The notes under the pieces were generated by a model, which was given only the letters and a program-made list of their open reading frames with translations, was not told the origin of the DNA and searched no databases. Below, piece by piece: positions 7,972 through 25,687 of a stretch of 45,786 nt of DNA. The DNA comes from Actinospica acidithermotolerans (GTDB taxonomy: Bacteria > Actinomycetota > Actinomycetes > Streptomycetales > Catenulisporaceae), in NCBI RefSeq assembly GCF_018139625.1, contig NZ_JAGSOH010000056.1, positions 1 through 45,786 on the forward strand, in the 5' to 3' direction. Both the position numbers and the translations under genes were made by a program. Position 1 is the first letter of the stretch; the number at the start of each line of letters is the position of its first letter.

Positions 7972-8700
7972 ATGCCGAATCCGGTCGAGGTAGACGCGAA
8001 AGAGCTGTTCAGCGGCCTTCCCCAGCGCTACGACCTGCTGGCGGAAATCTTATCCTTCGGTCAGAACCGGAGATGGCGGCACACGATGGTGGACGCCGCG
8101 CTGCGCATCGCGCCCGACGCGCGGCGGGTGCTCGACGTGGCCACCGGCACGGCCGGCGTCGCGCTGCGCTGGACCGACCGCGCGCCGGTCGAGGTCACCG
8201 GCGTCGACCTGACGGAGCGGATGCTGCTGCGCGGCCGGGAGAACGTGGCCAGGAACCGCAGGGGCGACCGGATCAGGCTGCTGCTGGGCCGGGCCGAGGC
8301 GCTGCCCTTCCCGGACGCCACCTTCGACGCCGTGACCTTCACGTACCTGCTGCGCTACGTCGACGACCCCGCCGCGACACTCGTGGAGCTGGCCCGCGTC
8401 CTCAAGCCGGGCGGCGCGCTGGCCAGCCTGGAGTTCGCCGTGCCGGGCAATCCCGCCTGGCACGCCGCCTGGTACGGCTACACGCGCGCCGTACTGCCCG
8501 CGGCCGGGATGCTCACCGGCGGCCGGGAGTGGGCGAACGTCGGCAGCTTCCTCGGCCCCTCGATCAGCGGCCACTACGCGGCGCACCCGGTCGAGAGCAT
8601 CGTCGGCTACTGGCGCGCCGCCGGGATCGAGGGGGTGCGCGCCCGGCGGATGAGCCTCGGCGGCGGACTGGTGATGTGGGGCCGCAAGGCAGATGGCTGA
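7972..8700 (+). CDS. UbiE/MenG-like SAM methyltransferase
   Basis: A 242-residue class I methyltransferase most like demethylmenaquinone methyltransferase. Seen: LFSGLPQRYDLLAEILSFGQNRRWR (the UbiE-type N-terminal region), SAM motif I LDVATGTAGVAL, the DLTERMLLRGREN loop, LPFPDATFDAVTFTYLLRYVDDP, and LARVLKPGGALASLEF. Start ATG 7972 has GGAG 7 nt upstream. The last 8 bp overlap the start of the membrane-protein gene, so they are co-transcribed. A role in menaquinone or another prenylated quinone fits the neighbouring polyprenyl synthase, but a second menG elsewhere is possible, so the symbol is withheld. Confidence 0.8.
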   Translation: MPNPVEVDAKELFSGLPQRYDLLAEILSFGQNRRWRHTMVDAALRIAPDARRVLDVATGTAGVALRWTDRAPVEVTGVDLTERMLLRGRENVARNRRGDRIRLLLGRAEALPFPDATFDAVTFTYLLRYVDDPAATLVELARVLKPGGALASLEFAVPGNPAWHAAWYGYTRAVLPAAGMLTGGREWANVGSFLGPSISGHYAAHPVESIVGYWRAAGIEGVRARRMSLGGGLVMWGRKADG

Positions 8701-9442
8701 CGCTCCCCGGGCCGCGTTCTACGCGCACCGCGGCTCACCCGCCGCCGACTGGCTCACGATCCTGCACCCGCCCTACACCGCGTGGCATCTGTCCTACGTC
8801 GCGTTCGGCGCGTGCCTTGCTCCGCACATCGACTGGGCCGTGTGCTGGCTGAGCATCGCCGGGTTCCTCCTGGCAGTGGGCATCGCGGCGCACGCCCTCG
8901 ACGAATGGAACGGCCGTCCCCTCGGCACCCGAATCAGCGCACGCGCGCTGTGGACCGCCGCCGTGCTCAGCCTCACCGGCGCCGTGGCGCTGGGCATCGC
9001 GGTCCTCCGGCACGCGGGCCTCGTCCTCATTCCGTTCATGGTCGTCGGCGTAGTCCTCGTGCTCGGCTACAACCTCGAGCTGTTCAACGGCGCCCTCCAC
9101 ACGGATCTCGGCTTCGCGCTCGCCTGGGGCGCGTTTCCCGCGGCGGTCGGCTATGTGGCCCAGGCGCCGCCGTGGACCGTGGCCGGCACGCTCGCTCTCG
9201 TCCTGGTCACGGTCGCCGCCACCGCGCTCTCCGCCGCGCAGCGCCGCCTCAGCACCCCCGCGCGCTCGCTGCGCCGCAAGACACGAACCGTCTCGGGATC
9301 GATCGTTCTCGCCGACGGCACGACTCAGCCCATTGATCGCGCCACGATGCTCGCCCCGCTCGACGGCGCGCTCAAGCTGCTGTCCTCGGCGGTTCCTGCA
9401 CTCGCGGCGGCGCTGCTGCTGGCACGCTGGGCAGGACGCTGA
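8693..9442 (+). CDS. polytopic membrane protein, possibly UbiA-like
   Basis: A 249-residue protein with about 6-7 hydrophobic segments (near residues 50-67, 87-104, 108-125, 135-152, 156-172 and 225-243) and a hydrophilic loop with HALDEWNGRPLGTRIS near residue 66. That acidic loop and the setting between a quinone-type methyltransferase and a polyprenyl synthase recall UbiA-superfamily prenyltransferases, but the classical NDxxD motif is absent, so this is a weak guess. It overlaps the methyltransferase gene by 8 bp. Its last 71 bp overlap the 3' end of the convergent polyprenyl synthase gene. Function is not established. Confidence 0.7.
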   Translation: MADAPRAAFYAHRGSPAADWLTILHPPYTAWHLSYVAFGACLAPHIDWAVCWLSIAGFLLAVGIAAHALDEWNGRPLGTRISARALWTAAVLSLTGAVALGIAVLRHAGLVLIPFMVVGVVLVLGYNLELFNGALHTDLGFALAWGAFPAAVGYVAQAPPWTVAGTLALVLVTVAATALSAAQRRLSTPARSLRRKTRTVSGSIVLADGTTQPIDRATMLAPLDGALKLLSSAVPALAAALLLARWAGR

Positions 9443-10484
9443 CCTGGCTCGTCACGATCTCGACGAGCGCGATCAGCTCCTCGCGAACCGCCTCGTCCGC
9501 CAGTGGCAGCTCCCGCACATGCCCCGCGGCCTCCCGCCCCAGCGCCCGAATCCGCTCCTCCACGGCGGCCCGCGCCCCGCTCCGCACCAGCACCGCCCGC
9601 AGCTCGTCCACCGCGTCGGCCGTCCCGAGCGCCACCAGCTCCTCCAGCGCGCGCTCATCCGAGGACCGGGCCAGCGCCTCGGCCAGCAGCACAGTCCGCT
9701 TGCCGTCGCGAAGATCGTCGCCCGACGGCTTCCCGGTGGCGGCCGGATCGCCGAATGCGCCGAGCAGGTCGTCCTGGAGCTGGAACGCGATCCCGAGGGC
9801 GTCGCCGTACGCCGCGTAGCCCGCCAGCAGTTCCTTCGACGCACCGGCCAGCGCGCCGCCGAACCGCAGCGGCCCGGTCGTCGTGCACGCCGCCGTCTTC
9901 GCCCGCGCCACCTCCATCGCCGCCGCGACGGACGGCTCACCCGAGGCCTGGGTGAGGAGGTCGAGGTACTGCCCGCGCATCGTCAGCGCGCGCATCTCGT
10001 CGTACACCGGCCGTGCCCGAGCCACGGCCGCGGCCGGCACGCCGCACGTCCGCAGCAGCTGATCGGCCCAGACCAGGCACAGATCCCCGGCCGTGATCGC
10101 CGCCGACATCCCGAATCGCGCACCCGACCCGTGCCACGAGCCGCGCCGATGCTCCTGCGCGAACGCGCGGTGCACCGCGGGCGCGCCGCGCCGGGTGGCC
10201 GAGCCGTCCATCACGTCGTCATGGATCAGCGCGCACGCGTGCAGCAACTCGACGACCGCGGCGGCGCCCACGGCGCCCGACGTCTCCGGCACCCCCGCCC
10301 CCCGCCACCCGAGCAGCACGAACCGGGCCCGCAGCCGCTTCCCGCCGCGCAGGACGAGGTCCGCGATCGGCGCGTACAGCCCCCCGACCCGCGAGGAGTC
10401 GCCGTCGGCCTCCGCCAGCCGCTCCGCGAAGAAGCCGCGCAGCACGTCGTCGATCTCGCTCACCTGAGTCTTCACCCCTGCCAC
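9372..10484 (-). CDS. polyprenyl (geranylgeranyl-type) diphosphate synthase
   Basis: A 370-residue trans-isoprenyl diphosphate synthase that condenses isopentenyl diphosphate with allylic diphosphates. Seen: GGKRLRARF near residue 47, the first Asp-rich motif DDVMD (about 89-93) followed by RRG, and the second motif QLQDDLLGAFGD (about 236-247). Residues just before the first motif are HACALIH; product length set by this region would need modelling, but a C20-type product is plausible. The start is GTG 10484, with an alternative GTG at 10475; no strong ribosome site. The C-terminal 24 residues are Pro/Ala-rich, and their codons overlap the convergent membrane-protein gene by 71 bp. A lipid carrier, carotenoid or quinone role is possible. 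Confidence 0.9.
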   Translation of the reverse strand: MAGVKTQVSEIDDVLRGFFAERLAEADGDSSRVGGLYAPIADLVLRGGKRLRARFVLLGWRGAGVPETSGAVGAAAVVELLHACALIHDDVMDGSATRRGAPAVHRAFAQEHRRGSWHGSGARFGMSAAITAGDLCLVWADQLLRTCGVPAAAVARARPVYDEMRALTMRGQYLDLLTQASGEPSVAAAMEVARAKTAACTTTGPLRFGGALAGASKELLAGYAAYGDALGIAFQLQDDLLGAFGDPAATGKPSGDDLRDGKRTVLLAEALARSSDERALEELVALGTADAVDELRAVLVRSGARAAVEERIRALGREAAGHVRELPLADEAVREELIALVEIVTSQVSVLPSVPAAAPPRVQEPPRTAA

Positions 10485-10552
10485 TTACCCGCAATCGCCG
10501 CGTCCCGCCGGAGTAGCCGGAAATTGTCTGAGCGCGATGCGAAGCTGGGGGA

Positions 10553-11134
10553 ATGACGCAACGGAACACGGTAGGCACCGACGAGCGCGAAGTCCTGCTC
10601 GGCTTCCTCGACGCGCAGCGAAAGGCCCTGCGCACGGCACTGCACGGCCTCACCGAGCAGGAGGCGAGGCTCGCCCCGTCGGCGAGCGCGCTCAGCGTGG
10701 CCGGCCTGGTCAAGCACGCCGCCTCCGTCGAGCGCGAGTGGACCGGCATGATCCGGGCACAGCCCAGCAGCAACGACTTCGAGAAGCACGCCGCCTCGTT
10801 CCAGCCCGGCGAGACGTCCGTGGCCGACCTGCTGAAGGACTACGAGCGGGCCGCAGAGGACACGGATGCCGCCATCCTCGCCGCCGAGGACCTCGACCAG
10901 CCCGTCCCGATCCCCAAGGGCGTGCCCTGGTTCCCCAAGGACATCGACGCGTGGAACGTCCGCTGGGTCCTCGTCCACCTGATCGAGGAGACCGCCCGCC
11001 ACGCCGGCCACGCCGACATCGTCCGCGAGTCCGTCGACGGAGCCCAGGCGATCGAGCTCCAGGCGGCGGCCGAGGGCTGGCCCGAGAACGGCTTCATCAA
11101 GCCCTGGCGCCGAAAGGAGCAGGCCGAGGACTGA
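10553..11134 (+). CDS. DinB-like (DUF664) protein
   Basis: A 193-residue four-helix-bundle protein of the DinB/DUF664 type, common in actinobacteria. Seen: LLGFLDAQRKALRTALHGL, LVKHAASVEREW with a metal-ligand His, and HLIEETARHAGHADIVRE with two further His, consistent with the metal-binding triad. Some relatives are mycothiol- or bacillithiol-dependent transferases; activity here is unknown. GGGGGA lies immediately before the ATG. Its stop codon is inside the first copy of the 51-bp tandem array. It is divergent from the polyprenyl synthase gene. Confidence 0.85.
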   Translation: MTQRNTVGTDEREVLLGFLDAQRKALRTALHGLTEQEARLAPSASALSVAGLVKHAASVEREWTGMIRAQPSSNDFEKHAASFQPGETSVADLLKDYERAAEDTDAAILAAEDLDQPVPIPKGVPWFPKDIDAWNVRWVLVHLIEETARHAGHADIVRESVDGAQAIELQAAAEGWPENGFIKPWRRKEQAED

Positions 11135-11385
11135 CCGCGAGTCGCCACCGGCCGTCGTTCTCCGGTGGCGCGGCGACGTGGCTGACCGCGAGTCGCCGGC
11201 CGCCCTCGTTCCCCGGGGGCCTGGCGACGTGGCTGACCGCGAGTCGTCGGCCGCCCTCGTTCCCCGGGGGCGCGACCACGTGGCTGACCGCGAGTCGCCG
11301 GCCGCCCTCGTTCCCCGGGGGCGTGGCGACGTGGCTGACCGTGAGTCGTCGGCCGCCCTCGTTCCCCAGGGGCGCGGCGGCCTGG
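11131..11385. repeat. five tandem copies of a 51-bp unit
   Basis: Copies begin at 11131, 11182, 11233, 11284 and 11335, each starting CTGACCG(C/T)GAGTCG and ending GTGG or CTGG. The inner three are nearly identical; the outer two diverge. The unit is 17 codons long, so several frames stay open on both strands (17-residue repeats such as ADRESPAALVPRG). It starts on the DinB stop codon (CTGA) and fills the space between two convergent genes. Each unit contains CCCCGGGG or a variant. No start codon with a ribosome site supports translation; a minisatellite or RNA/terminator role is more likely. Confidence 0.92.
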
Positions 11386-11407
11386 CGGCCCGGCGGCGCT
11401 GCGCGCG

Positions 11408-12016
11408 TCAGGGGCGCGGACCCGCGGCGCCGGCGGTCGCTGCCCGCTGCGTGCCGTGTTCGCGCTGGTCGCGGAGTTCGCAGAAGCCGTCGGAGCCGAT
11501 GTTCAGGCCGTGGTTCGAGATGTTGTAGACGTGCTCGGTGGCGACGACCCAGGCCAGCTCGCAGATCTGGCGCTCGCTGTAGAACGGGCGCAGGCGCTCG
11601 AAGGTCTCGGGGCGCACGTGCTTGTCGGCGGCGAGTTCGCTCGCGTAGTCGAGCGCGGCGCGCTCGGCGTCGGTGAACAGCGGGCTGGTCCGGTAGGCGG
11701 CAAGGGCGTCGAGACGCTCGGCGCTGATCAGGGACTTGTCCAGGGCGTACCAGCGGGAGAAGTCCTGGCAGAACAGGCAGGCGTTCTCGCCGGCGACGCG
11801 CTCCCTGACCAGGATGACGGTCTCGGCCGGAAGCTCCAGCCTCTTGTCCAGGCGGGAGATCTTCCCCATGAAGCTGAGGAAGCTCAGCGGCATCCGGGTG
11901 CCGTAGATCGCGAACGGCGTGGGGACCTTGCCCATCTGGCGGCGGGTGAGCGCGAAGACGAGCTTGCGCAGCGCGCCGTTCGGGTTCTCGATCGGGGGCA
12001 GGTACGGCTCGGTCAT
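11408..12016 (-). CDS. carboxymuconolactone decarboxylase (AhpD-like) family protein
   Basis: A 202-residue member of the CMD/AhpD fold, which includes decarboxylases and peroxiredoxin-type reductases. Seen: ERVAGENACLFCQDFSRW, the CxxC pair of the family; the His usually three residues after the second Cys is Ser here. The distal helix pattern AALDYASELAADK and ELAWVVATEHVYN are typical. Start ATG 12016 is supported by GAAGG 9 nt upstream. It is divergent from an ECF41-like sigma factor, exactly the arrangement known for ECF41 with CMD-type COE partners, and has a candidate ECF41 promoter. The substrate is unknown. Confidence 0.85.
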   Translation of the reverse strand: MTEPYLPPIENPNGALRKLVFALTRRQMGKVPTPFAIYGTRMPLSFLSFMGKISRLDKRLELPAETVILVRERVAGENACLFCQDFSRWYALDKSLISAERLDALAAYRTSPLFTDAERAALDYASELAADKHVRPETFERLRPFYSERQICELAWVVATEHVYNISNHGLNIGSDGFCELRDQREHGTQRAATAGAAGPRP

Positions 12017-12075
12017 GGTGGTGCGCCTTCTATCGGTGTCGGTCGCTCTTCTGGTGGAACCGCATTCACCGCTAT

Positions 12076-12102
12076 GACCCGCGGCGGACCGCGAATGTGA
12101 CA
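12076..12102 (-). promoter_or_regulatory. candidate ECF41-type promoter of the CMD gene
   Basis: On the minus strand TGTCACA (12102-12096) is followed after 16 nt by GGTC (12079-12076). Published ECF41 promoters carry TGTCACA at -35 and CGTC at -10. The transcript would start about 50-60 nt before the CMD gene start at 12016. The site is in the spacer shared with the divergent sigma gene. Confidence 0.6.
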
Positions 12103-12123
12103 CGGCGTGCGAAACTGACCCGG

Positions 12124-13023
12124 ATGGACGACGTCGAATGGCTCGCCCGGGCCTTCGCCGAGCACCGGGCCCGGCTGCAGGCGATGGCGTACCGCATGCT
12201 CGGATCGTTCGCGGACGCCGAGGACGTGCTGCAGGACGCGTGGCTGCGCGCGAGCACGTCCGATGCGCACGCCGGGGAGATCGAGAATCCGGCCGGATGG
12301 CTGACGACGGTCGTCGGCCGGGTGTGCCTGAACCTGCTGCGTACGCGGCGGACGCGCGCCGAGGAGCCCTGGGAGCTGCACCTGCCCGACGCGGTGGTCA
12401 GTGCCGAGGGCGCGGCGCCGGCGCCGGAGGACGCGGCGCTGCTGTCGGACCGGGTCGGGCTCGCGCTGCAGATCGTGCTCGACGAGCTGGCCCCGGACGA
12501 GCGCGTCGCGTTCGTGCTGCACGACCTGTTCGCCGTGCCGTTCGCCGACATCGCCGCCGTGCTCGGCCGGTCCGACGCCTCCGCGCGGCAGCTCGCCAGC
12601 AGGGCCAGGCGACGCGTCGCCGACGCGGGTACGAGCGCGCCTGACCAGGACGTTCCCGGACAGCGTGCCGTGGTCGACGCGTTCTACGCGGCTGCCCGCA
12701 ACGGCGACCTCGACGGCCTGGTCGCGGTCCTGCACCCCGACGTCGTGGCCCGCGCCGACTTCGGCGGACGACGCCTGCCCACCCCGGCGATGCTCCGTGG
12801 CGCGGACGCGGTCGCCGAGAACGCGCGCATCGGCTTCATTCCCGAAGCGGACCTGCATCCGGTGCTGATCAACGGCGCGGTCGGGACCCTGGTCGTCAAG
12901 CACGGCCGCCCCTTCGCGCTGATGGCGTTCACGGTCGTGGACGGCCGCATCGCCGCGCTCGACGTTTACGGCGACCGTGCGCGGATCGCCCGGCTGGCCT
13001 ATTCGGTCCTGCGGACTCTCTGA
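12124..13023 (+). CDS. ECF41-like RNA polymerase sigma factor with SnoaL-like C-terminal domain
   Basis: A 299-residue sigma factor. Region sigma2 is at about residues 5-75 (HRARLQAMAYRMLGSFADAEDVLQDAWLR), sigma4 at about 115-170 (LDELAPDERVAFVLHDLFAVPF, DASARQLASRARRR), and a SnoaL/NTF2-like extension at about 180-295. In ECF41 proteins this tail modulates activity without a classical anti-sigma factor. The ECF41 marks appear as variants: PWELHLPD in the linker (cf. WLPEP) and ADFGGRR in the tail (cf. DGGG). Start ATG 12124 has no clear ribosome site. The divergent CMD gene with a TGTCACA promoter is the likely target. Confidence 0.88.
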   Translation: MDDVEWLARAFAEHRARLQAMAYRMLGSFADAEDVLQDAWLRASTSDAHAGEIENPAGWLTTVVGRVCLNLLRTRRTRAEEPWELHLPDAVVSAEGAAPAPEDAALLSDRVGLALQIVLDELAPDERVAFVLHDLFAVPFADIAAVLGRSDASARQLASRARRRVADAGTSAPDQDVPGQRAVVDAFYAAARNGDLDGLVAVLHPDVVARADFGGRRLPTPAMLRGADAVAENARIGFIPEADLHPVLINGAVGTLVVKHGRPFALMAFTVVDGRIAALDVYGDRARIARLAYSVLRTL

Positions 13024-17353: not shown

Positions 17354-18307
17354 TCAAGCCTTCGCCGCGAGCGCCTTGGTGAGCCGGGAGACCGGACCGC
17401 CGAGGCCGTAGCTCTCGGCCAGCTCCTCCAGCCGCGCCCGGTCGGCGGGCGCGCTCGGCAGCACGGAGTCCACGGGAGTGACAGGCGCGTCGGCACGCAC
17501 GCGCACGACGTCCGGCGCGACCTTCAGATACGTCTCGGCCTCCGCGAGCCGCTTGCGGACCGCCGGCTTGACCGCCGACGCCGGGTCCGCGGCCGCCGCG
17601 AGCAGCCCCGGCAGCGAGCCGTACGCGGCCAGCAGCGCGGCGGCGGTCTTCTCGCCGATCCCGGCCACGCCGGGCAGTCCGTCGCTCGCGTCGCCGCGCA
17701 GGGTCGCGAAGTCAGCGTACTGAGAGCCGGTCACCCCGTACTTGGCCGCGAGCTCCGTGTCGCCGAGCACTTCCAGCTTCGCCACGCCGCGCGCGATGTT
17801 AAATACTCGTACCCTGTCCGCGTCCGAGATCAGCTGGAACATGTCCCGGTCCCCGGTCACGACGTCCACCGGGCCGCCGTCCTCCGCGCGGTGGCGGGCC
17901 GCGTACGCCGCGATCGCGTCGTCGGCCTCGAAGCCGGGCGCCCAGCCGTCCGCGATTCCGAACGCGGCGAGGACTTCCAGCAGCATCGCCACCTGAGGGG
18001 TGAGGGTGTCCGGCACCTCCTCGACGGACGCGCTGCCCTCGCCGCGCGCCTCGGGCGCCGGCTCCCCGACCACCCGGTGCGCCTTGTACGACGGCAGCAG
18101 CGCAACCCGGAACGCCGGACGCCAGTCCGCGTCGAAGCACGCGATCAGCCGGTCCGGCCGATGGTGCGTGACCAGGTGCGAGATGAAGTCGAGGGTGCCT
18201 CGGACGGCGTTCACCGGACGCCCGTCGGGCGCCGTGATCGAGTCCGGCAACGCGAAGAAAGCCCGGAAGTAGAGCGTGGGCGTATCCAGGAGCATCAGCT
18301 GAGCCAC
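17354..18307 (-). CDS. 5'-3' exonuclease (PolA N-terminal-like)
   Basis: A 317-residue flap/5'-3' exonuclease of the FEN type, equal to the N-terminal domain of DNA polymerase I but free-standing. Seen: MLLDTPTLYFRAFFAL, acidic metal ligands in CFDADWRPAFR and FEADDAIAAYA, VVTGDRDMFQLI, and the helix-hairpin-helix LRGDASDGLPGVAGIGEKTAAALL. Expected to remove RNA primers or 5' flaps. Start GTG 18307; ATG 18295 is an alternative and neither has a strong ribosome site. A separate exonuclease of this kind is common in actinobacteria alongside PolA. Confidence 0.92.
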   Translation of the reverse strand: MAQLMLLDTPTLYFRAFFALPDSITAPDGRPVNAVRGTLDFISHLVTHHRPDRLIACFDADWRPAFRVALLPSYKAHRVVGEPAPEARGEGSASVEEVPDTLTPQVAMLLEVLAAFGIADGWAPGFEADDAIAAYAARHRAEDGGPVDVVTGDRDMFQLISDADRVRVFNIARGVAKLEVLGDTELAAKYGVTGSQYADFATLRGDASDGLPGVAGIGEKTAAALLAAYGSLPGLLAAAADPASAVKPAVRKRLAEAETYLKVAPDVVRVRADAPVTPVDSVLPSAPADRARLEELAESYGLGGPVSRLTKALAAKA

Positions 18308-18358
18308 ATTGCAAGGATGTCACGATCGTGTCTAGGCGGCGTGCCACCCTCGCCCGTA

Positions 18359-18390
18359 TTGCGTATCCCTTCAGATCCGGTCCATATACT
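18359..18390 (+). promoter_or_regulatory. weak promoter candidate for the glycosyltransferase gene
   Basis: TTGCGT (18359-18364) and the AT-rich CATATACT (18383-18390) lie upstream of the TTG start at 18430. The gap is 18 bp to CATATA or 20 bp to TATACT, so the pair is imperfect. Confidence 0.3.
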
Positions 18391-18429
18391 GACGTGCCCG
18401 TATACACAACAGGAAGAGGGGGGTGTCGC

Positions 18430-19968
18430 TTGCTTACGCAGCCGGTTACCGCCGTCCCTCTGCCCGCACCGGCGGACACGGTCACCACGAAGCGCCAGCC
18501 CGCGTGGCCGAACCGGCTCTGGCTGCTGCCGGTACTGGTCACGGCGGTCCTCGGGCTGTGGCGCGCGTCCTCGATCGATCTGTGGTGGGACGAGCTGAGC
18601 ACGATCGACATCGCTCGCCGGCCCTTCAGCGGCATCATCGCGACGGCCGGCCACGTCGACGCGGTGCACACCGTCTACTACCTCTTCATGCACGTCTGGA
18701 TCATCCTGTTCGGCGCCTCGCCGATCTCGGTGCGGCTGCCGAGCGTCCTCGCGATGTGCGGGGCCACGGCGTGCACGGCGGTGATCGCCGAAAAGCTCTT
18801 CGACAAGCGCATCGGGCTGACAGCGGCGATGATCTTCGCGCTCATCCCGGGCGTGGCGCGGTACGCGCAGGAGGCCCGGTCCTACGGCTTCGTGGTCCTC
18901 GGCGCCTCGGCCGCGTTCCTGCTTCTGCTGCGCGCATTGGAGCAGCCGAGCCCGCGGCGCTGGAAGATCTACGGCGCGATTCTCGCCCTCACCGGCGCGC
19001 TGAACCTGATCGCGTTGATGGCCGTGGTGGGCCACGCGGTGGCCGTGCTGGTCAAGGCGCGCGCCGAAAGCGACGACCCGGCCACGCGCCGCCGCGACTA
19101 CCTCAGGCCCTTCGTGCTCGCCGTCGGCGTCGCCGTGCTCATCGACCTGCCGGTCATCGTCTTCGGCGCCTTCGAGGCCGACAGCCAGCTCGGCGACCTG
19201 TCGCGCGCGACCGTCTCCGATCTGCCGTCGATGTGGAAGGACATCGGCAACTCGGCCCCCTTCTCGCTCCTCGTGCTGCTCGCCCTGCCGCTGCTGCTCT
19301 CGCACCGCAAGCGGGGCCCCGAGCTGACGATCCTGGCCTCCGCGACGTTCCCGGTCGTCGCGCTCTGGTTCGTCTCGCTGTTCGGCGTCGGCTTCGACTC
19401 CTTCGCGCGCTACCTGCTGTTCGTGCTCCCGGTGTGGGCCATCGCGATCGCCGCCGCCGTGGACCGGCTCTGGCCCGCGCGCAAGGCCGCGCTGATCGCG
19501 GTCATCCTCGTCACCGCGGTGGCGGTGACCTACGACCAGCTGCAGATCCACGGCCACCTGAGCCACTTCAAGTACGACTACCCCGGCGCCTCGGTGCTGC
19601 CCGAGGACTACTCGGCGGCCGCCGCGATCGTCCACGCCAACTACAAGGCGGGCGACGCCGGCACCTTCGGCCAGTCCGTGCACATCGAGCTCGGCGTCAA
19701 CGAGTACCTGCCGGCCGACGAGCAGCTGAGCGACATCTTCACGCAGCGCACCGACGCGCAGGAGAACAGCCTCACGCCGGCCTACTGCACGAGCACCGAG
19801 GCGTGCGTGGACAAGGCCCCGGACCGGGTCTGGATGCTGGAGACCGGCTTCGTCGCGCCCTACGCGGTCGAGCGGGCGGACTGGTCGCTGGCGCTGATGC
19901 TGCAGTACCGCACCGTGCAGGTGTGGCACGTCTGGGGAATCACGGTCACGCTGCTCGAGCGCCGCTGA
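18430..19968 (+). CDS. polytopic membrane glycosyltransferase (GT-C, GT39/ArnT-like)
   Basis: A 512-residue integral membrane protein with roughly 9-11 hydrophobic segments. After the first membrane segment it carries SIDLWWDELSTIDIARRPF, the acidic loop of GT-C transferases that use polyprenyl-phosphate sugars; HTVYYLFMHVWIILFGASPISVRLPSVL and YAQEARSYGFVVL are also typical of the GT39/dolichyl-mannosyltransferase-like group. A hydrophilic C-terminal region (from about residue 370) would lie outside the membrane. Start TTG 18430 is chosen because a GA-rich AGGGGGG tract lies 6 nt upstream; longer forms add non-conserved residues. Acceptor and sugar are unknown; cell-wall glycan or protein O-glycosylation is possible. 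Confidence 0.85.
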   Translation: MLTQPVTAVPLPAPADTVTTKRQPAWPNRLWLLPVLVTAVLGLWRASSIDLWWDELSTIDIARRPFSGIIATAGHVDAVHTVYYLFMHVWIILFGASPISVRLPSVLAMCGATACTAVIAEKLFDKRIGLTAAMIFALIPGVARYAQEARSYGFVVLGASAAFLLLLRALEQPSPRRWKIYGAILALTGALNLIALMAVVGHAVAVLVKARAESDDPATRRRDYLRPFVLAVGVAVLIDLPVIVFGAFEADSQLGDLSRATVSDLPSMWKDIGNSAPFSLLVLLALPLLLSHRKRGPELTILASATFPVVALWFVSLFGVGFDSFARYLLFVLPVWAIAIAAAVDRLWPARKAALIAVILVTAVAVTYDQLQIHGHLSHFKYDYPGASVLPEDYSAAAAIVHANYKAGDAGTFGQSVHIELGVNEYLPADEQLSDIFTQRTDAQENSLTPAYCTSTEACVDKAPDRVWMLETGFVAPYAVERADWSLALMLQYRTVQVWHVWGITVTLLERR

Positions 19969-19972
19969 CCCG

Positions 19973-19999
19973 GCGTCAGGGGCCTGCGGCCCCTGGCGC
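19973..19999. terminator. terminator hairpin between convergent genes
   Basis: CAGGGGCC (19977-19984) and GGCCCCTG (19988-19995) form a perfect stem with a 3-nt loop, extended outward by GCGT/GCGC pairing. It sits in the 46-bp gap between convergent stop codons. Confidence 0.65.
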
Positions 20000-20014
20000 G
20001 GACCCCGCCGGCGT

Positions 20015-21208
20015 CTACAGGAACGTGCGGCCCTCGCCGCGATAGGTCGGCACGGTCGCCGTCACCTTGTCGCCCTCGATCGTGTGCAGCTCGGCGAAGC
20101 GCTCGCACAGCTCGCCGGCCTTCGCGTGCCGGAACCAGACCCGGTCGCCCACGGCCAGGTCGTCCGCCGTCGGGCCGAGCAGCGGGGTCTGCACCTCGCC
20201 GGCGCCCTCCTGCGCGTCGTAGCGCAGCTTCGGCGGCAGGTACGGCTGCGGCAGCCGGTCCTTCCCGGGCACGCCGGACGCCAGGTAGCCGCCGCCGAGC
20301 ACGGTGACCACGCCGAGCCCCGGGCGGCGCACCACCGGCAGCGCGAACAGCGCCGCGGGCCGTCCGCCCACGTTCCGGTAGCCGTCGAACAGGCGCGGCT
20401 TGAACAGGCCGGAGCCCGCCGCGATCTCGGTCACCGCCTCCTCGGCCGCCGTGCGCTCGACCGAGCCGGTGCCGCCGCCGTTGACGAACTCCAGCTGCCC
20501 GATCTCCTTGACCGCCGCCACGATCTCGGCCCGGCGCTCGGCCAGCTCGGCCGCGCTCAGCCCCTGCATCGCGCGCACGGCGAGACCGCGGGCCGGCCTG
20601 CCCGGCGGCCGGTCGCCGACCCCGGCGATCTGCGCCTCGTACGCCATCAGGCCGACCAGCCGCAGGCCGGTCCGGTCGGCGGCCTCGCGGGCCACCGTGC
20701 AGACGGCCTCGACGCTGTGCAGCGGGGAGCGCCGGGCGCCGACCCGCAGCTTGCCGCGCAGCGGGCGCCAGGAGGCGTCGATGTCCACGCTGATCCGCAC
20801 CGGAGCGGCGTCGGGCACCTCGGCCATGACCTTCTCGATCAGGTCCAGCTGCTCGACCGAGTCCGCGGTCAGCGTGATCACGTCGGCGGCCACCGGGTCG
20901 GCGGCCAGCCGGCGGATCGCCGCGCGGTCCGCCGTCGGGTAGGCCACCAGGATGTCCGCGAAGCCGGACTCGGCCAGCCACAGCGCCTCGGGCAGGGTGA
21001 AGGCCATCACGCCCTCGAACCCGTCCATCTCCAGCACCGCCCGGAGGATCTCCCGGCAGCGCACGGACTTGGAGGCCACCCGGATGGGCTTGCCGCCGGC
21101 CCGGCGCACCAGCTCGGCCGCGTTCTCGCGCAGCGCCGCGAGGTCGACCACCGCCAGCGGCGGGTCGAGGTGCGCGGTGGCGTGGTTCAGCCGATCGAGG
21201 TCCTTCAC
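20015..21208 (-). CDS. PLP-dependent amino acid deaminase/aldolase, alanine racemase-like fold
   Basis: A 397-residue fold-type III PLP enzyme related to alanine racemase, D-threonine aldolase and D-serine dehydratase. Seen: PLAVVDLAALRENAAELVRRAGGKPIRVASKSV, in which the Lys of VASKSV is the likely PLP lysine; ILVAYPT; RISVDIDASWRPLRGKLRVGARRSPL; a long FVNGGGTGSVE phosphate-binding loop; and a C-terminal domain with LGGGYLASG and LAVGDRVWFRHAKAGELCERF, where the metal-binding Cys/His of D-threonine aldolase-like enzymes would lie. Start GTG 21208 is chosen by homology; the upstream open frame has no conservation. The exact reaction is not determinable. It stands alone, divergent from the protease unit. 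Confidence 0.82.
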   Translation of the reverse strand: MKDLDRLNHATAHLDPPLAVVDLAALRENAAELVRRAGGKPIRVASKSVRCREILRAVLEMDGFEGVMAFTLPEALWLAESGFADILVAYPTADRAAIRRLAADPVAADVITLTADSVEQLDLIEKVMAEVPDAAPVRISVDIDASWRPLRGKLRVGARRSPLHSVEAVCTVAREAADRTGLRLVGLMAYEAQIAGVGDRPPGRPARGLAVRAMQGLSAAELAERRAEIVAAVKEIGQLEFVNGGGTGSVERTAAEEAVTEIAAGSGLFKPRLFDGYRNVGGRPAALFALPVVRRPGLGVVTVLGGGYLASGVPGKDRLPQPYLPPKLRYDAQEGAGEVQTPLLGPTADDLAVGDRVWFRHAKAGELCERFAELHTIEGDKVTATVPTYRGEGRTFL

Positions 21209-21369
21209 GCTAACGACCCTGCCACGAGCCCGCGGGGCCGGGCGAGAGCGAACGTGTCCCGGAACGGTTTCGAGTTGATGACCGAGAAGAGCGCCGGAAC
21301 TCCGGTATAGGGTGCGTCGTTGATACGTCTTTTCGGCGGGCGCGCGACCCGCCGGTCGGAGGGAGCGGC

Positions 21370-22173
21370 GTGGAATCGCAGGCATTCGGCGCGGACGGGG
21401 GCTTCCCGGACACCGCGGGGCTGCCGCCGCGACCACGTCGTTCACCCGGACGGGTGATCGCCGCGGCCCTCGTCCCGCTGGTCGCCCTCGCGGTGGCCGG
21501 CGTCGGCTTCGCGCTGTCCGGCGGCAGCCCCTCGTACGAGGCGGGAGCGAAGCCGGGATCCGGCGCCGCGGCCGCGGACGTCGCGGCGCGCGCCGTCTGG
21601 CGCAGCGCGGGCGCCGACCGGATCCTGCCCGCGAAGATCGACCGCGAGGGCACCGAGTCGTACTACCGGCTCGCCGTAGACCCGGACGAGTCCTGCGCGC
21701 ACCTGCCCGCCGCGTTCATCAAGGCGCTCGGCGCCGCCGGCTGCACGCACGTCGTGCGGGCCACCTACCTCGACTCGACGGAGTCCGTCGTCGCGACCGT
21801 CGGCCTCGTCGCGGTCGGCGGCACCGGCGCGCAGCGAACGGCGCTGTTCCAGGACTGGACCGCCGACTCGTACGCCCGGCAGTACTCGATGATGCCCTCG
21901 ACGTACCCGGTCCGCTCGACGCTCGCCGCGAGCTTCGGCGACGCGCAGCGGATCGCGTGGAAGTCGGCGATCTCGAACGACGGCTCCTACATCGCGTTCT
22001 CCGTCGCGGGGTTCGCCGACGGGCGCCTCGGCCCCTCGGCCGCGGCATTCGACCTGGGCAACGACTCCGAACTCCAGTCCGACTCGCCGCCGGTCCAGGT
22101 CGCCGACGACCTGTCCGCCTCGACGCTGTCCACGTTCAGCGCCCTCTACTCCCCGAACGGAGCCCACTCATGA
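21370..22173 (+). CDS. membrane-anchored extracytoplasmic protein of unknown function
   Basis: A 267-residue protein starting at GTG 21370 behind GGAGGGAG. Residues 28-50 form one transmembrane segment after a Pro/Arg-rich cytoplasmic tail (PPRPRRSPGR), so the C-terminal 215 residues should be outside. Two Cys in DESCAHLPAAFIKALGAAGCTHVV may form a disulfide. The region VVRATYLDSTESVVATVGLVAV resembles a small alpha/beta domain, but no family is recognised. Its TGA overlaps the ATG of the protease gene (ATGA), so the two are translationally coupled and probably work together, for example as chaperone, inhibitor or substrate (inference). Confidence 0.8.
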   Translation: MESQAFGADGGFPDTAGLPPRPRRSPGRVIAAALVPLVALAVAGVGFALSGGSPSYEAGAKPGSGAAAADVAARAVWRSAGADRILPAKIDREGTESYYRLAVDPDESCAHLPAAFIKALGAAGCTHVVRATYLDSTESVVATVGLVAVGGTGAQRTALFQDWTADSYARQYSMMPSTYPVRSTLAASFGDAQRIAWKSAISNDGSYIAFSVAGFADGRLGPSAAAFDLGNDSELQSDSPPVQVADDLSASTLSTFSALYSPNGAHS

Positions 22174-23450
22174 GGGCGCGGGTGCGCGGGGCACGGACCC
22201 TCGGAGCGCTCGCGGGCGCACTGGCCTGCGTGGCCGCCTCCCTGACGATCGGCGCGTCCCCGGCCGCCGCCGACGCGATCCGGACGGCCGAGTGGCCGGT
22301 CGGCTACCTGGACCTGCCGGCCGCGCAGCGGATCAGCAGCGGCACCGGCGTGACCGTCGCGCTGCTGGACACCGGCGTCGTGCAGGGCCGCGCCGACCTG
22401 ACCGGCCAGGTCACCACCGGACCAGACTACGCGGGCGGCATCGAGAAGCAGGGCGACTCCGGCTGGGGCGAGCACGGCACCTGCATGGCCTCGATCATCG
22501 CCGGCCACGGGCGCAACGGCGGCGGCGACGGCATGCTCGGCGTCGCGCCGGACGCGCACATCCTGTCCGTCCGGGTCATCCGCGACGACGACGCCCCCGA
22601 CTTCGGCCAGGCCACCACCGACTCGACGCCGATCTCGGACGGCATCAGGTACGCGGTGGACCACGGCGCCCAGGTCATATCCATGTCCCTCGGCGGCGAG
22701 GAGTCGGACGCGGGCGACGACTCGTCCGCCGAGTCCGATGCGATCCGCTACGCCCTCGCGCACAACGTCGTGGTCGTCGCGGCGGCCGGAAACGGCGCGA
22801 CGCAGGGCGACCCGGTCTCCTACCCCGGCGGCGAGCGCGGCGTCATCACGGTCGCGGCGGTCGACTCCGGCGGCAACCACGCGAACTTCTCCACGACCGG
22901 CTGGGACGTCGCCGTCGCGGCGCCCGGCGTGAACCTGCCGTGCGACGCGTACAACGCCGACGACGCCTACATGGAGGGCAGCGGCACCAGCCAGGCCACC
23001 GCGTACGTCTCCGGGCTCGTCGCTCTGCTCAAGGCGGAGAATCCAGCGCTCAGCACCGAGCAGATCAAGAGCGTGCTCGAGACGACGGCGAGCGACAAGC
23101 CGGGCGGCGGCCGCGACGACGAGGTCGGCTTCGGCGTGATCGACCCGGTGGCCGCGCTGCGGGCGGCGAAGTCGATGAGCGGCCTGCCGACGGTGCCGAA
23201 GGCCGGCTCGGGCGTCGCCTCCGGCCACTTCGGCTACGGCCCGACCGAGACGGTGACGCTCGGATCCTCCGGGCTGAGCGACCGGGCGCGCGCGGCGATC
23301 GGCGGCGCCGTGCTCATCGCGATCGCGCTCGTCGTCGCGCTGCTGATGCTGCGTCGGCCGAAGCCGCCGCGGTTCGAGGTCGAGATCGTGGAGTTCGTCC
23401 GGCCCCAGGCGCCGCCGTCGGACGGGCCTCGGCTAGGGTCGGACGAATGA
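22170..23450 (+). CDS. mycosin-like membrane-anchored subtilisin protease
   Basis: A 426-residue S8 serine protease. Signal peptide residues 1-35 (LGALAGALACVAASLTIG, cleavage near AAA-DAI); catalytic Asp67 in ALLDTGV, His102 in EHGTCMAS, oxyanion Asn208 in AAAGNGA, and Ser274 in GSGTSQATAYVSG. A C-terminal transmembrane helix (about 376-395) and a short basic/acidic cytoplasmic tail follow. This topology is that of mycosins (MycP), which process type VII secretion substrates, but no esx, eccC or eccD genes are near, so a stand-alone role is equally possible. It overlaps the upstream membrane-protein gene and the downstream SseB-domain gene by 4 nt each. Confidence 0.88.
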   Translation: MRARVRGARTLGALAGALACVAASLTIGASPAAADAIRTAEWPVGYLDLPAAQRISSGTGVTVALLDTGVVQGRADLTGQVTTGPDYAGGIEKQGDSGWGEHGTCMASIIAGHGRNGGGDGMLGVAPDAHILSVRVIRDDDAPDFGQATTDSTPISDGIRYAVDHGAQVISMSLGGEESDAGDDSSAESDAIRYALAHNVVVVAAAGNGATQGDPVSYPGGERGVITVAAVDSGGNHANFSTTGWDVAVAAPGVNLPCDAYNADDAYMEGSGTSQATAYVSGLVALLKAENPALSTEQIKSVLETTASDKPGGGRDDEVGFGVIDPVAALRAAKSMSGLPTVPKAGSGVASGHFGYGPTETVTLGSSGLSDRARAAIGGAVLIAIALVVALLMLRRPKPPRFEVEIVEFVRPQAPPSDGPRLGSDE

Positions 23451-24235
23451 GCGACACCCACGGTCCGGCGCACCAGCGCAATCTGCTCTCCACCGGCTTC
23501 GACGGAGACGACGGGACCGCTGATCCGGCGCTGATCGAGGTGCTGGCGGCGGCCCGGCGCGACGAGGCGGCCGTCTACCCGGCGTACGCGGCGCTCTCCG
23601 GGCGGCGCGTGCTCGTCCCGGTGGTCGCGGTGCTCGGCGAGAGCGAGACGGCCGAGACCCTCGGCCCGGACGGCAAGCCGCTGCGCCGCGACAAGGACAG
23701 CGACATGGCCGTGATCACGCTGGTCGCGGGCGACGGGGTCAAGGCGCTGCCGGCGTTCACCTCGGTGCAGGCGCTGTCCGAGTGGGGCGCGAAGGCCGGC
23801 TACCCGCAGGCGCGGCCGATCCCGGTGACGATAGAGACCGCGGCCGCGGCGACGCTCCAGGAGAACGCGGCGGTGCTGCTGCTCGACCTCGGCGGCCCCG
23901 GCCAGTTCGAGATCTCCGGCAGCGCGCTGCGGGCCTTCGCCCAGCAGCGCAAGCCGCTGCCGCCGTCCGTCGACCCGGAGGTCGTGGACGCGATCAAGCG
24001 GGCGCTCGCCGGCGTTCCCGAGATCGCCCGGGTGCTCGACGACGCCCGGCTCGGCCAGGCGGCGGAGGACGTCACGGTCCTGGCGCTCGGCTTCGTGCCC
24101 GGCACCGATCCGGCGGGACTCGCCGAGCCGCTGCAGCGGGTCGCGACGGCGATCTCCGAGGACGAGCTGCTGCGGGACCGGCTCTCCGGCGGCCTGCAGA
24201 TCGTGATGGCGCCGGACCCGGCCTCGGGCAGCTGA
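23447..24235 (+). CDS. SseB-domain protein
   Basis: A 262-residue cytoplasmic protein with the SseB N-terminal domain (about residues 20-130: ALIEVLAAARRDEAAVYPAYAAL, RRVLVPVVAVLG, MAVITLVAGDGVKALPAFTSVQALSEW) and a C-terminal region (to 262) with VDAIKRALAGVPEIARVLDDARLGQ and DVTVLALGFVP, like the SseB C-terminal domain. SseB-type domains are best known from secretion-linked enhancer proteins but are widespread in actinobacteria with unknown roles. Its ATG overlaps the protease stop (ATGA), making a three-gene coupled unit. It is convergent with the DUF1844 gene, 15 nt away. Confidence 0.85.
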   Translation: MSDTHGPAHQRNLLSTGFDGDDGTADPALIEVLAAARRDEAAVYPAYAALSGRRVLVPVVAVLGESETAETLGPDGKPLRRDKDSDMAVITLVAGDGVKALPAFTSVQALSEWGAKAGYPQARPIPVTIETAAAATLQENAAVLLLDLGGPGQFEISGSALRAFAQQRKPLPPSVDPEVVDAIKRALAGVPEIARVLDDARLGQAAEDVTVLALGFVPGTDPAGLAEPLQRVATAISEDELLRDRLSGGLQIVMAPDPASGS

Positions 24236-24250
24236 GCCGGCCCGACCGGG

Positions 24251-24610
24251 TCAGCCGACCGGTCCGGTGAGCTTCTCGCCCGGGCCCTGACCCGGCGCGT
24301 CGGCCACGGCAGAGGCCTCGCGGAAGGCCAGCTGCAGCGTGCGCAGGCCGTCCCGCAGCGGCAGCGCGTGCTGCGAGCCGATCTCCGGCGCGGCGGCGGT
24401 GACCAGGCCGGCCAGCGCGGTGATCAGCTTGCGCGCCTCGTCCAGGTCCTTCTCCGGCGCGTTCCCGTGCTCGTCCGGCTCGCCGAGGCCGAGCTGCACC
24501 GCGGCGGCGGTCATCAGGTGCACGGCCAGCGTCGCGATCACCTCGACGGCGGGGACCTCGGCGAGGTCGCGCTCCGATACGTCGATCTGCTGCTCGGCCG
24601 TGGTGCTCAC
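24251..24610 (-). CDS. DUF1844 domain protein
   Basis: A 119-residue small acidic/helical protein. The core VEVIATLAVHLMTAAAVQLGLGE, then DLDEARKLITALAGLVTAA, matches DUF1844, a family found next to infC in many actinobacteria. The start is GTG 24610 with AAGGAG 6 nt upstream. Function is unknown. It is transcribed away from infC, so promoters of both lie in the 24611-25018 region. Confidence 0.88.
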   Translation of the reverse strand: MSTTAEQQIDVSERDLAEVPAVEVIATLAVHLMTAAAVQLGLGEPDEHGNAPEKDLDEARKLITALAGLVTAAAPEIGSQHALPLRDGLRTLQLAFREASAVADAPGQGPGEKLTGPVG

Positions 24611-25018
24611 CCTGTACTCCTTATGCTGGTACTCCCGACACGCCAGTGTCGCACGCCCGCGTGGCCGGCCTCGAAGTGCCGGTGCAGTGCCGGGAGTCTG
24701 CTAATCTAGGGATAGCGTCACGTAAGGGACTGCCCCCGGGTGGCCCCGACGCGCAAGTGGAGGGCCCACCTCCCACCTGATCGACCGGCGGTCGATGGGT
24801 ACGGTACCGGCGCGCGATTCGCATTCGCGCGCGACGGCAAGGTGGAGCTCTGCATTGCTTCCGCGAAGGCGGACATTGCGGAGCTTTTTCGTATGCCGAG
24901 GAATCGTCCCAGCCTCCCGGGCGTTTCACGGCGGTGCGGGCTCACCCCGCACCGACCAGCGGACCCGGTACGACGGCTCTCGGCGAGCCTCCGGGACCGC
25001 ATGAACCTAGGAGGCCCC
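24611..25018 (+). promoter_or_regulatory. infC upstream region and likely long leader
   Basis: A 408-bp stretch without a credible gene. TAATCT (about 24702-24707) within CTGCTAATCTAGGG is a plausible -10, which would give a leader of about 300 nt. Downstream are CGACC-GGC-GGTCG (24782-24794) and GCGCGCGA/TCGCGCGC with a 7-nt loop (24810-24817, 24825-24832). A GGAGG at 25010-25014 precedes infC. Long infC leaders are often sites of attenuation or feedback by IF-3 or L20; that is inference here. Confidence 0.4.
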
Positions 25019-25687
25019 ATCAGCGCCGAACCCCGCATCAACGACCGGATCCGCGTGCCCGAGGTGCGCCTGGTCGGCCCGGACGGCCAGCAGGTCGGGA
25101 TCGTCTCGATCCAGGACGCGCTGCGCCTGGCCCAGGAGTCCGACCTCGACCTGGTCGAGATCGCGCCCACCTCGCGTCCGCCGGTGGCCAAGCTCATGGA
25201 CTACGGCAAGTTCAAGTACGAGTCCGCGATGAAGGCCCGTGAGGCGCGCAAGAACCAGGCGCACACGATCATCAAGGAGATGAAGCTCCGGCCGAAGATC
25301 GACCCGCACGACTACGAGACCAAGAAGGGTCACGTCGTCCGGTTCCTCAACGCCGGGGACAAGGTCAAGATCACGATCATGTTCCGCGGCCGGGAGCAGT
25401 CCCGCCCGGAGCTCGGCCGCAGGCTGCTGGACCGGCTCGCCTCGGATGTCGAGGAGCTCGGTTTCGTCGAGTTCGCGCCCAAGCAGGACGGGCGCAACAT
25501 GATCATGGTGCTCGGCCCGCGGAAGAAGAAGGTCGACGCGATGGCGGAGGCCCGGGCCGCGAAGGCCGCCCGCGCCGCGCAGTCCGGCAGGGATGCGGAC
25601 GCCGAGGCGCCGGCCGAGACCGACCAGGCCGCCGAGATCGACGAGACCACCGAGAACGTCGGGTCCGCCGAGGAGACCGCGGAGTAG
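25019..25687 (+). CDS. infC: translation initiation factor IF-3
   Basis: A 222-residue IF-3 if started at ATC 25019 ([19 protein letters not shown]). This codon is preferred because GGAGG ends 4 nt upstream and because actinobacterial IF-3 typically begins at this Ile-Ser; the only nearby standard codon, ATG 25001, would place the GGAGG inside the gene. An ATC/ATT start is a known infC feature allowing autoregulation, since IF-3 discriminates against such starts. Seen: N-domain to about residue 75, the linker [21 protein letters not shown], and the C-domain with [24 protein letters not shown] and [13 protein letters not shown]. An Ala/Glu-rich tail of about 45 residues follows. It heads the infC-rpmI-rplT group. 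Confidence 0.93.

Follow-up and report, generated by a model that had tools for sequence, protein, structure and literature searches.

A stop-codon-edged 51-bp tandem array in Actinospica acidithermotolerans is probably one of many intergenic minisatellites, which in the sampled genome favour gene 3' ends

The MIRUs of mycobacteria have an edge at a stop codon and are sited between co-directional, translationally coupled genes, and I-shaped (U-less) intrinsic terminators occur in actinobacteria. The accessible part of PMC2734929 describes 41 MIRU sites, with elements up to about 100 bp long, and also treats the array ETR-F of the Mycobacterium tuberculosis complex (rnc-fpg1). In the accessible text of the survey by Subirana and Messeguer (2019; PMC6749651), prokaryotic satellites are defined as units of 10-200 nt repeated at least four times, families spread through transposition are described as rare, and a density above 4 satellites per Mb is given for just 18 bacterial species; its main text mentions neither Actinospica nor Catenulispora. 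Beyond the general and mycobacterial papers cited here, searches of open-licence literature yielded no arrays at gene ends of the present kind in Streptomyces, Catenulispora or Actinospica, and nothing usable on U-less actinobacterial terminators.

We analysed a window of 45,786 nucleotides from the genome of A. acidithermotolerans (7.9 Mb in 422 contigs), in which five copies of a 51-bp unit lie between two convergent genes (Table 1). The five tandem repeats reported in a preliminary description of this DNA are real: TRF placed the array at 11131-11386 with a period of 51, 5.0 copies, 88% matches, no indels and a score of 393, against 89 for the next-best of the tandem repeats in its 25 rows for the window. 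A 33-base pattern derived from units 2-5 and allowed up to three mismatches matched those four units only across the window, where the chance expectation was 0 (100 shuffles). Self-identity at a lag of 51 sets in at 11131, the C of GAC, which is the final sense codon of the DinB-fold mycothiol-S-transferase-like gene (MST). The onset is thus at the MST stop codon, with CTGA as the first four bases of the unit, as had been described; these are the last base of the gene before TGA and TGA itself, and with this onset every unit carries a TGA. The three inner copies had also been called nearly identical, which held for units 2 and 4 but less so for unit 3, at 46/51 and 47/51 to those two. Units 1 and 5 share 40-45 of 51 bases with the other units, and similar middle copies with most-diverged ends are the usual pattern, in which the middle exchanges and the edges drift. 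The unit-to-unit differences argue against a simple assembly artefact. G+C content is 79% in the array and 72% in the window.

Table 1. Positions of the array, its neighbours and a selection of further intergenic arrays of the same genome (more exist). Entries with an L number refer to other loci of the genome, all others to the window.
Feature	Position	Strand	Remarks
DinB-fold mycothiol-S-transferase-like gene (MST)	10553-11134	+	PF04978, E 6.5e-43; gene call
Unit 1	11131-11181	+	diverged, as unit 5 is; holds the MST stop codon
Unit 2	11182-11232	+	50/51 identical to unit 4
Unit 3	11233-11283	+	
Unit 4	11284-11334	+	
Unit 5	11335-11385	+	right edge of the array
Convergent carboxymuconolactone-decarboxylase-like (CMD/AhpD-like) gene	11408-12016	-	PF02627; gene call
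Variable region	11135-17353		genes: CMD-like, sigma factor, SARP/AfsR-like regulator, one more
Further intergenic array	L058:8272-8757		
Further intergenic array	L043:8549-8713		
Further intergenic array	L063:3739-3939		
Further intergenic array	L063:7049-7198		
Further intergenic array	L066:6482-6699		
Further intergenic array	L087:1789-2135		
Further intergenic array	L092:877-1204		
Further intergenic array	L110:589-940		

Between the array and the stop codon of the convergent CMD-like gene lie 22 bases. The match of this gene to its Pfam family (E 0.0018, 18.6 bits) is below the Pfam cut-off of 23, its closest counterparts in 12 other family genomes are just 28-43% identical, and the family genome search gave no match in congener G001. 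An ECF sigma factor gene is divergent from the CMD-like gene (both within 11408-13023) and has Sigma70_r2 and r4_2 domains; SnoaL_2 is below the Pfam cut-off, as is the best NCBIfam match, SigJ, below its own. An ECF41-type promoter, TGTCACA-N16-GGTC, at 12076-12102 on the minus strand is directed at the CMD-like gene (chance expectation 0.14). In the accessible part of PMC3426412 the ECF41 promoter -10 consensus is given as CGTC, and the sigma factor, CMD-like gene and promoter together fit the ECF41/COE pairing described there. Rfam returned just two matches, both below gathering scores and both outside the array, and among the matches listed in a plasmid search (20 of 57 records) all 20 were confined to the MST gene.

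Both congeners (G001 and G002) have the MST gene, with DNA 75-76% identical, and in both the sequence after its stop differs from the array. Same-order matches to the window genes at 7972-11134 and to most of those at 17354-25687 were found in a 20-kb stretch of G002; the exceptions are the window gene at 18430-19968, for which the stretch gave no match, and an additional gene called in G002 immediately ahead of MST. Matches are also missing for the four window genes of the variable region, in place of which the stretch has other genes. With synteny on both sides and differing content between, the array therefore sits where the variable region begins on its left, immediately behind the MST stop. 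The array had no match in any of the 13 other family genomes. The unit had been proposed as a query for further arrays in its own genome; it returned no further copy there, and the arrays present at other loci are unrelated to it. The 33-base pattern was also absent from genome_contigs, a collection from which near relatives may have been left out. None of seven MST loci from other genera (L034-L040) has a similar array; one (L035) carries a weak 39-bp array with a score of 121.

Like arrays were counted in 51 pieces of the same genome that include the window and total 1,045,786 bases, about 13% of it. This sample is non-random: its contigs were picked for their length or their number, or had come up in other searches. 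Loci L001-L033 and nine tiny contigs of 384-391 bases (L101-L109) were set aside in this survey, as were L159 and L161-L165 (249-660 bases) in that of G001. The main count took arrays with a period of at least 30 and a TRF score of at least 150; a threshold of 100 was tried separately, and of its 28 arrays 1, 1 and 3 were left without an assigned gap at the three gene-call settings. The sample held 20 intergenic arrays (about 19 per Mb) and 7 coding arrays, the further intergenic ones having periods of 30-170 bp. The congener samples held no intergenic array, with four coding arrays in 640,000 bases of G002 and one in 182,612 bases of G001. At the rate of the array's own genome without the window, 19 per Mb, zero arrays in both congener samples would have a probability of about 2e-7, assuming that arrays are independent and the samples comparable. 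A further genome, G004 (loci L132-L151), held eight intergenic and five coding arrays in 400,000 bases, a density about that of the array's own genome. The contrast with the congeners is confined to longer-period intergenic arrays: a looser count (at least four copies of 10-200 nt, score 50, short and coding repeats included) gave 28 per Mb here, 17 in G002, 33 in G001 and 43 in G004, leaving the congeners unremarkable. Because our TRF count is looser (28 per Mb), these densities are not comparable with those in the accessible text of PMC6749651. The units of the 20 arrays are mutually unrelated, except for two neighbouring arrays in one gap.

These arrays favour gene 3' ends. Thirteen of the 20 lie over a gene 3' end against 5.6 expected (p 0.0004), three over a gene 5' end against 8.1 expected (p 0.014), and half (10) are in convergent gaps against 3.6 expected (p 0.0006). 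With the window left out, the 3' excess (p 0.007 or less) and the convergent excess (p 0.024 or less) held at all nine combinations of gene-call setting and score threshold, and the 5' deficit had p under 0.05 at seven of them and p 0.064 and 0.073 at the other two. The G004 sample showed no 3'-end bias (2/8 against 1.5 expected). Such a genome-wide bias is mildly surprising; the window array as an object is ordinary. The arrays reach 4 to 147 bases into the gene 3' end, and an edge exactly at the stop is therefore the shortest case and not the rule. A stop-codon start and a period divisible by three look designed, and the genome-wide context cautions that neither is special.

Seven of the 20 arrays were compared with the congeners. 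At three of them (L043, L058 and L063:7049) the flanks are adjacent in G002, where the gap between flank matches is 148, 53 and 57 bases, respectively, against 257, 510 and 220 bases here. Three copies of the L058 array each match a single common stretch per congener, over 77-103 of 127 bases and at 70-75% identity, and this stretch lies within the 3' tail of the gene. L043 is a weaker case, in which the copies match one congener stretch over 14-16 of 50 bases in G002 and 31-33 in G001. TRF found no tandem array of period at least 30 at the congener loci matching L058 and L043; the congeners thus carry the gene-tail part of each unit once, and part of the unit is all that they show. At L063:7049 the G002 sequence between the flanks has no match to the array, and no ancestor can be seen for the window, L066, L063:3739 and L093 arrays, owing to broken synteny or an unmatched flank. 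The 84-bp tandem duplication at L060:4626-4793 is exact, with two 100% identical copies; it spans the last 81 bases of a gene plus its stop, has a junction without microhomology and resembles what a newborn array would look like.

We consider it probable, at roughly 80%, that the window array is a lineage-specific intergenic minisatellite that arose by tandem duplication of the MST stop and its 3' flank and was tolerated with the protein intact. Its units are head-to-tail direct repeats within the minisatellite range of about 10-100 bp and are specific to one locus. The customary proof of a minisatellite is a copy number that differs among strains; at two sibling loci, L058 and L043, the congeners show part of the unit once. 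The minisatellite option of the preliminary description gains support from the membership of the array in a genome-wide intergenic set biased to gene 3' ends, alongside its anatomy, its absence from the relatives searched, the abundance of sibling arrays and the lack of a coding signal described below. The MST stop codon and the next 47 bases would have been duplicated in tandem, and the duplicate would then have grown to five copies through slippage or unequal exchange. The array may be tolerated because the first copy leaves the end of the MST protein unchanged and no promoter is expected between convergent ends, and the stop-codon start would be the edge allowed by selection on the MST coding sequence, not a signal. 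Like arrays may have arisen separately at many loci, giving a population of mostly unrelated arrays that is absent from the samples of the two congeners. By analogy with its siblings, the window array was probably born by the same route; the mechanism (slippage, unequal exchange or break repair) and near-neutrality are likewise suggested by the siblings. Against this account of its birth stands the other sequence after the MST stop in both congeners, where no single-copy ancestor is visible. Should the preference for 3' ends and convergent gaps extend to whole genomes and other lineages, it would mark where tandem duplications arise or are tolerated.

A tentative account, to which we give limited credence, is that the lineage has an active process of tandem copying of gene 3' tails, stop included, which prefers convergent sites and of which the window array is one product. 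Such copying might take place, for example, at stalls of converging transcription or replication, through template switching or break repair, and it would be absent or weak in the congeners despite the presence of Ku and NucS in all. Ku (PF02735) and NucS (PF01939) were considered as the cause of array-rich versus array-poor genomes and rejected; both are present in 14/14 family genomes and therefore provide no contrast.

The array had also been proposed as a terminator of convergent transcription. On such a reading, five GC-rich hairpins without U-tracts would act in series to stop transcription of both MST and the convergent CMD-like gene. The location between convergent genes is suitable, and each unit forms a stable hairpin (-24.5 to -30.6 kcal/mol for sense RNA; weaker, -21.7 to -25.8, for antisense). 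As controls we folded 200 of the 393 available post-stop 51-mers from this genome (G+C 68%), among which 12% reached -24.5 kcal/mol and 5.5% reached -30; in folding stability the units thus exceed most of the genome's post-stop sequence. For the array as a whole, z is -2.1 in sense and -1.6 in antisense, and 93.7% of cells are paired in the stem, compared with 36-55% in slid versions. However, z is -2.5 to -2.8 for units 2 and 4 and just -0.8 to -0.9 for units 1, 3 and 5, and 30% of the controls, which are lower in G+C, have z below -0.8. The control distribution therefore makes the unit hairpins strong but not unique. The GC-rich stem-loop of tandem intrinsic terminators is present and the T-tract after the stem is not: no T-tract terminator-like site was found on either strand, by a scan that is blind to U-less terminators. 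Covariation was no greater than in shuffles, with only five sequences to compare; both partners had changed in 2 of 19 pairs, compared with 1.2 in shuffles, and 181/500 shuffles gave at least as many. Folded at three offsets, with units longer than 130 bases cut to 130, the units of the 20 intergenic arrays averaged z of -0.03 and +0.25 on the two strands; the single arrays L058:8272, L063:3739 and L093 had z of -2.1 to -2.6 at the best offset. The reading is therefore supported by the hairpins and not by a T-tract, covariation or average hairpin enrichment among sibling arrays, and we regard a terminator array as an unlikely explanation. In view of the stable folding of the units and of the whole sense strand, a role is possible; termination would be an incidental side effect and is unlikely to be why the array exists.

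Insertion of a mobile or dispersed repeat (MIRU-like or REP-like) at the stop codon is highly improbable. In unit size and in its edge at a stop codon the array resembles the MIRUs of mycobacteria, and it sits at a synteny breakpoint, but the reading is largely refuted by the lack of further unit copies in this genome, in the 13 other family genomes and in genome_contigs, and by the unrelated units of the sibling arrays. Coding readings are more improbable still. On these, the array would encode either a frameshifted MST extension or a separate small protein made up of 17-residue repeats, and several frames had been noted as open on both strands; five of six are indeed open across the array because 51 is a multiple of three, the MST frame being the closed one, and mechanical ORFs of 116 aa (11178-11528, plus strand) and 379 aa cross it. 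Openness is uninformative here, since stops are rare at this G+C and stop-free units are frequent by chance, and a period of 51 is not telling, as only 8/20 intergenic arrays (against 7/7 coding arrays) have a period divisible by three. Read-through of MST, which had been suggested, is excluded because its frame meets five further stops within the array, with a TGA in every later unit. The suggested frameshift fails on codon usage: log-odds per codon run from -0.71 to +0.02 in the open frames, the best of which is below the 5th percentile (0.124) of real-gene pieces from this genome (0.346 +/- 0.124, n=3082), and no coding-like open frame follows the stop. Together, the stops and the codon scores led us to reject the read-through, frameshift and small-protein readings.

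Among described systems, MIRUs share with the window array the unit size and the stop-codon edge. They are a dispersed family with homologous units at many sites, whereas the window unit is found at one place only, and the genes flanking it are convergent and not co-directional and coupled. Like the I-shaped terminators of actinobacteria, the array offers a GC-rich hairpin after a stop codon; unlike them, it does so five times over with uneven stems, and its sibling arrays on average lack hairpin enrichment. With five repeats of 51 bp the window array fits the satellite definition in the accessible text of the Subirana and Messeguer survey (PMC6749651), where families spread by transposition are rare; none was seen here. 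ETR-F, as the accessible part of PMC2734929 describes it, ends at a gene start and has a length that correlates with the expression of that gene, whereas the window array is flanked by gene ends on both sides; copy number has been shown to vary for ETR-F, and the window array is known from one genome. The two are alike in being intergenic head-to-tail arrays of units of tens of bases that follow a stop codon, each in one lineage and in a gap that is short in relatives.
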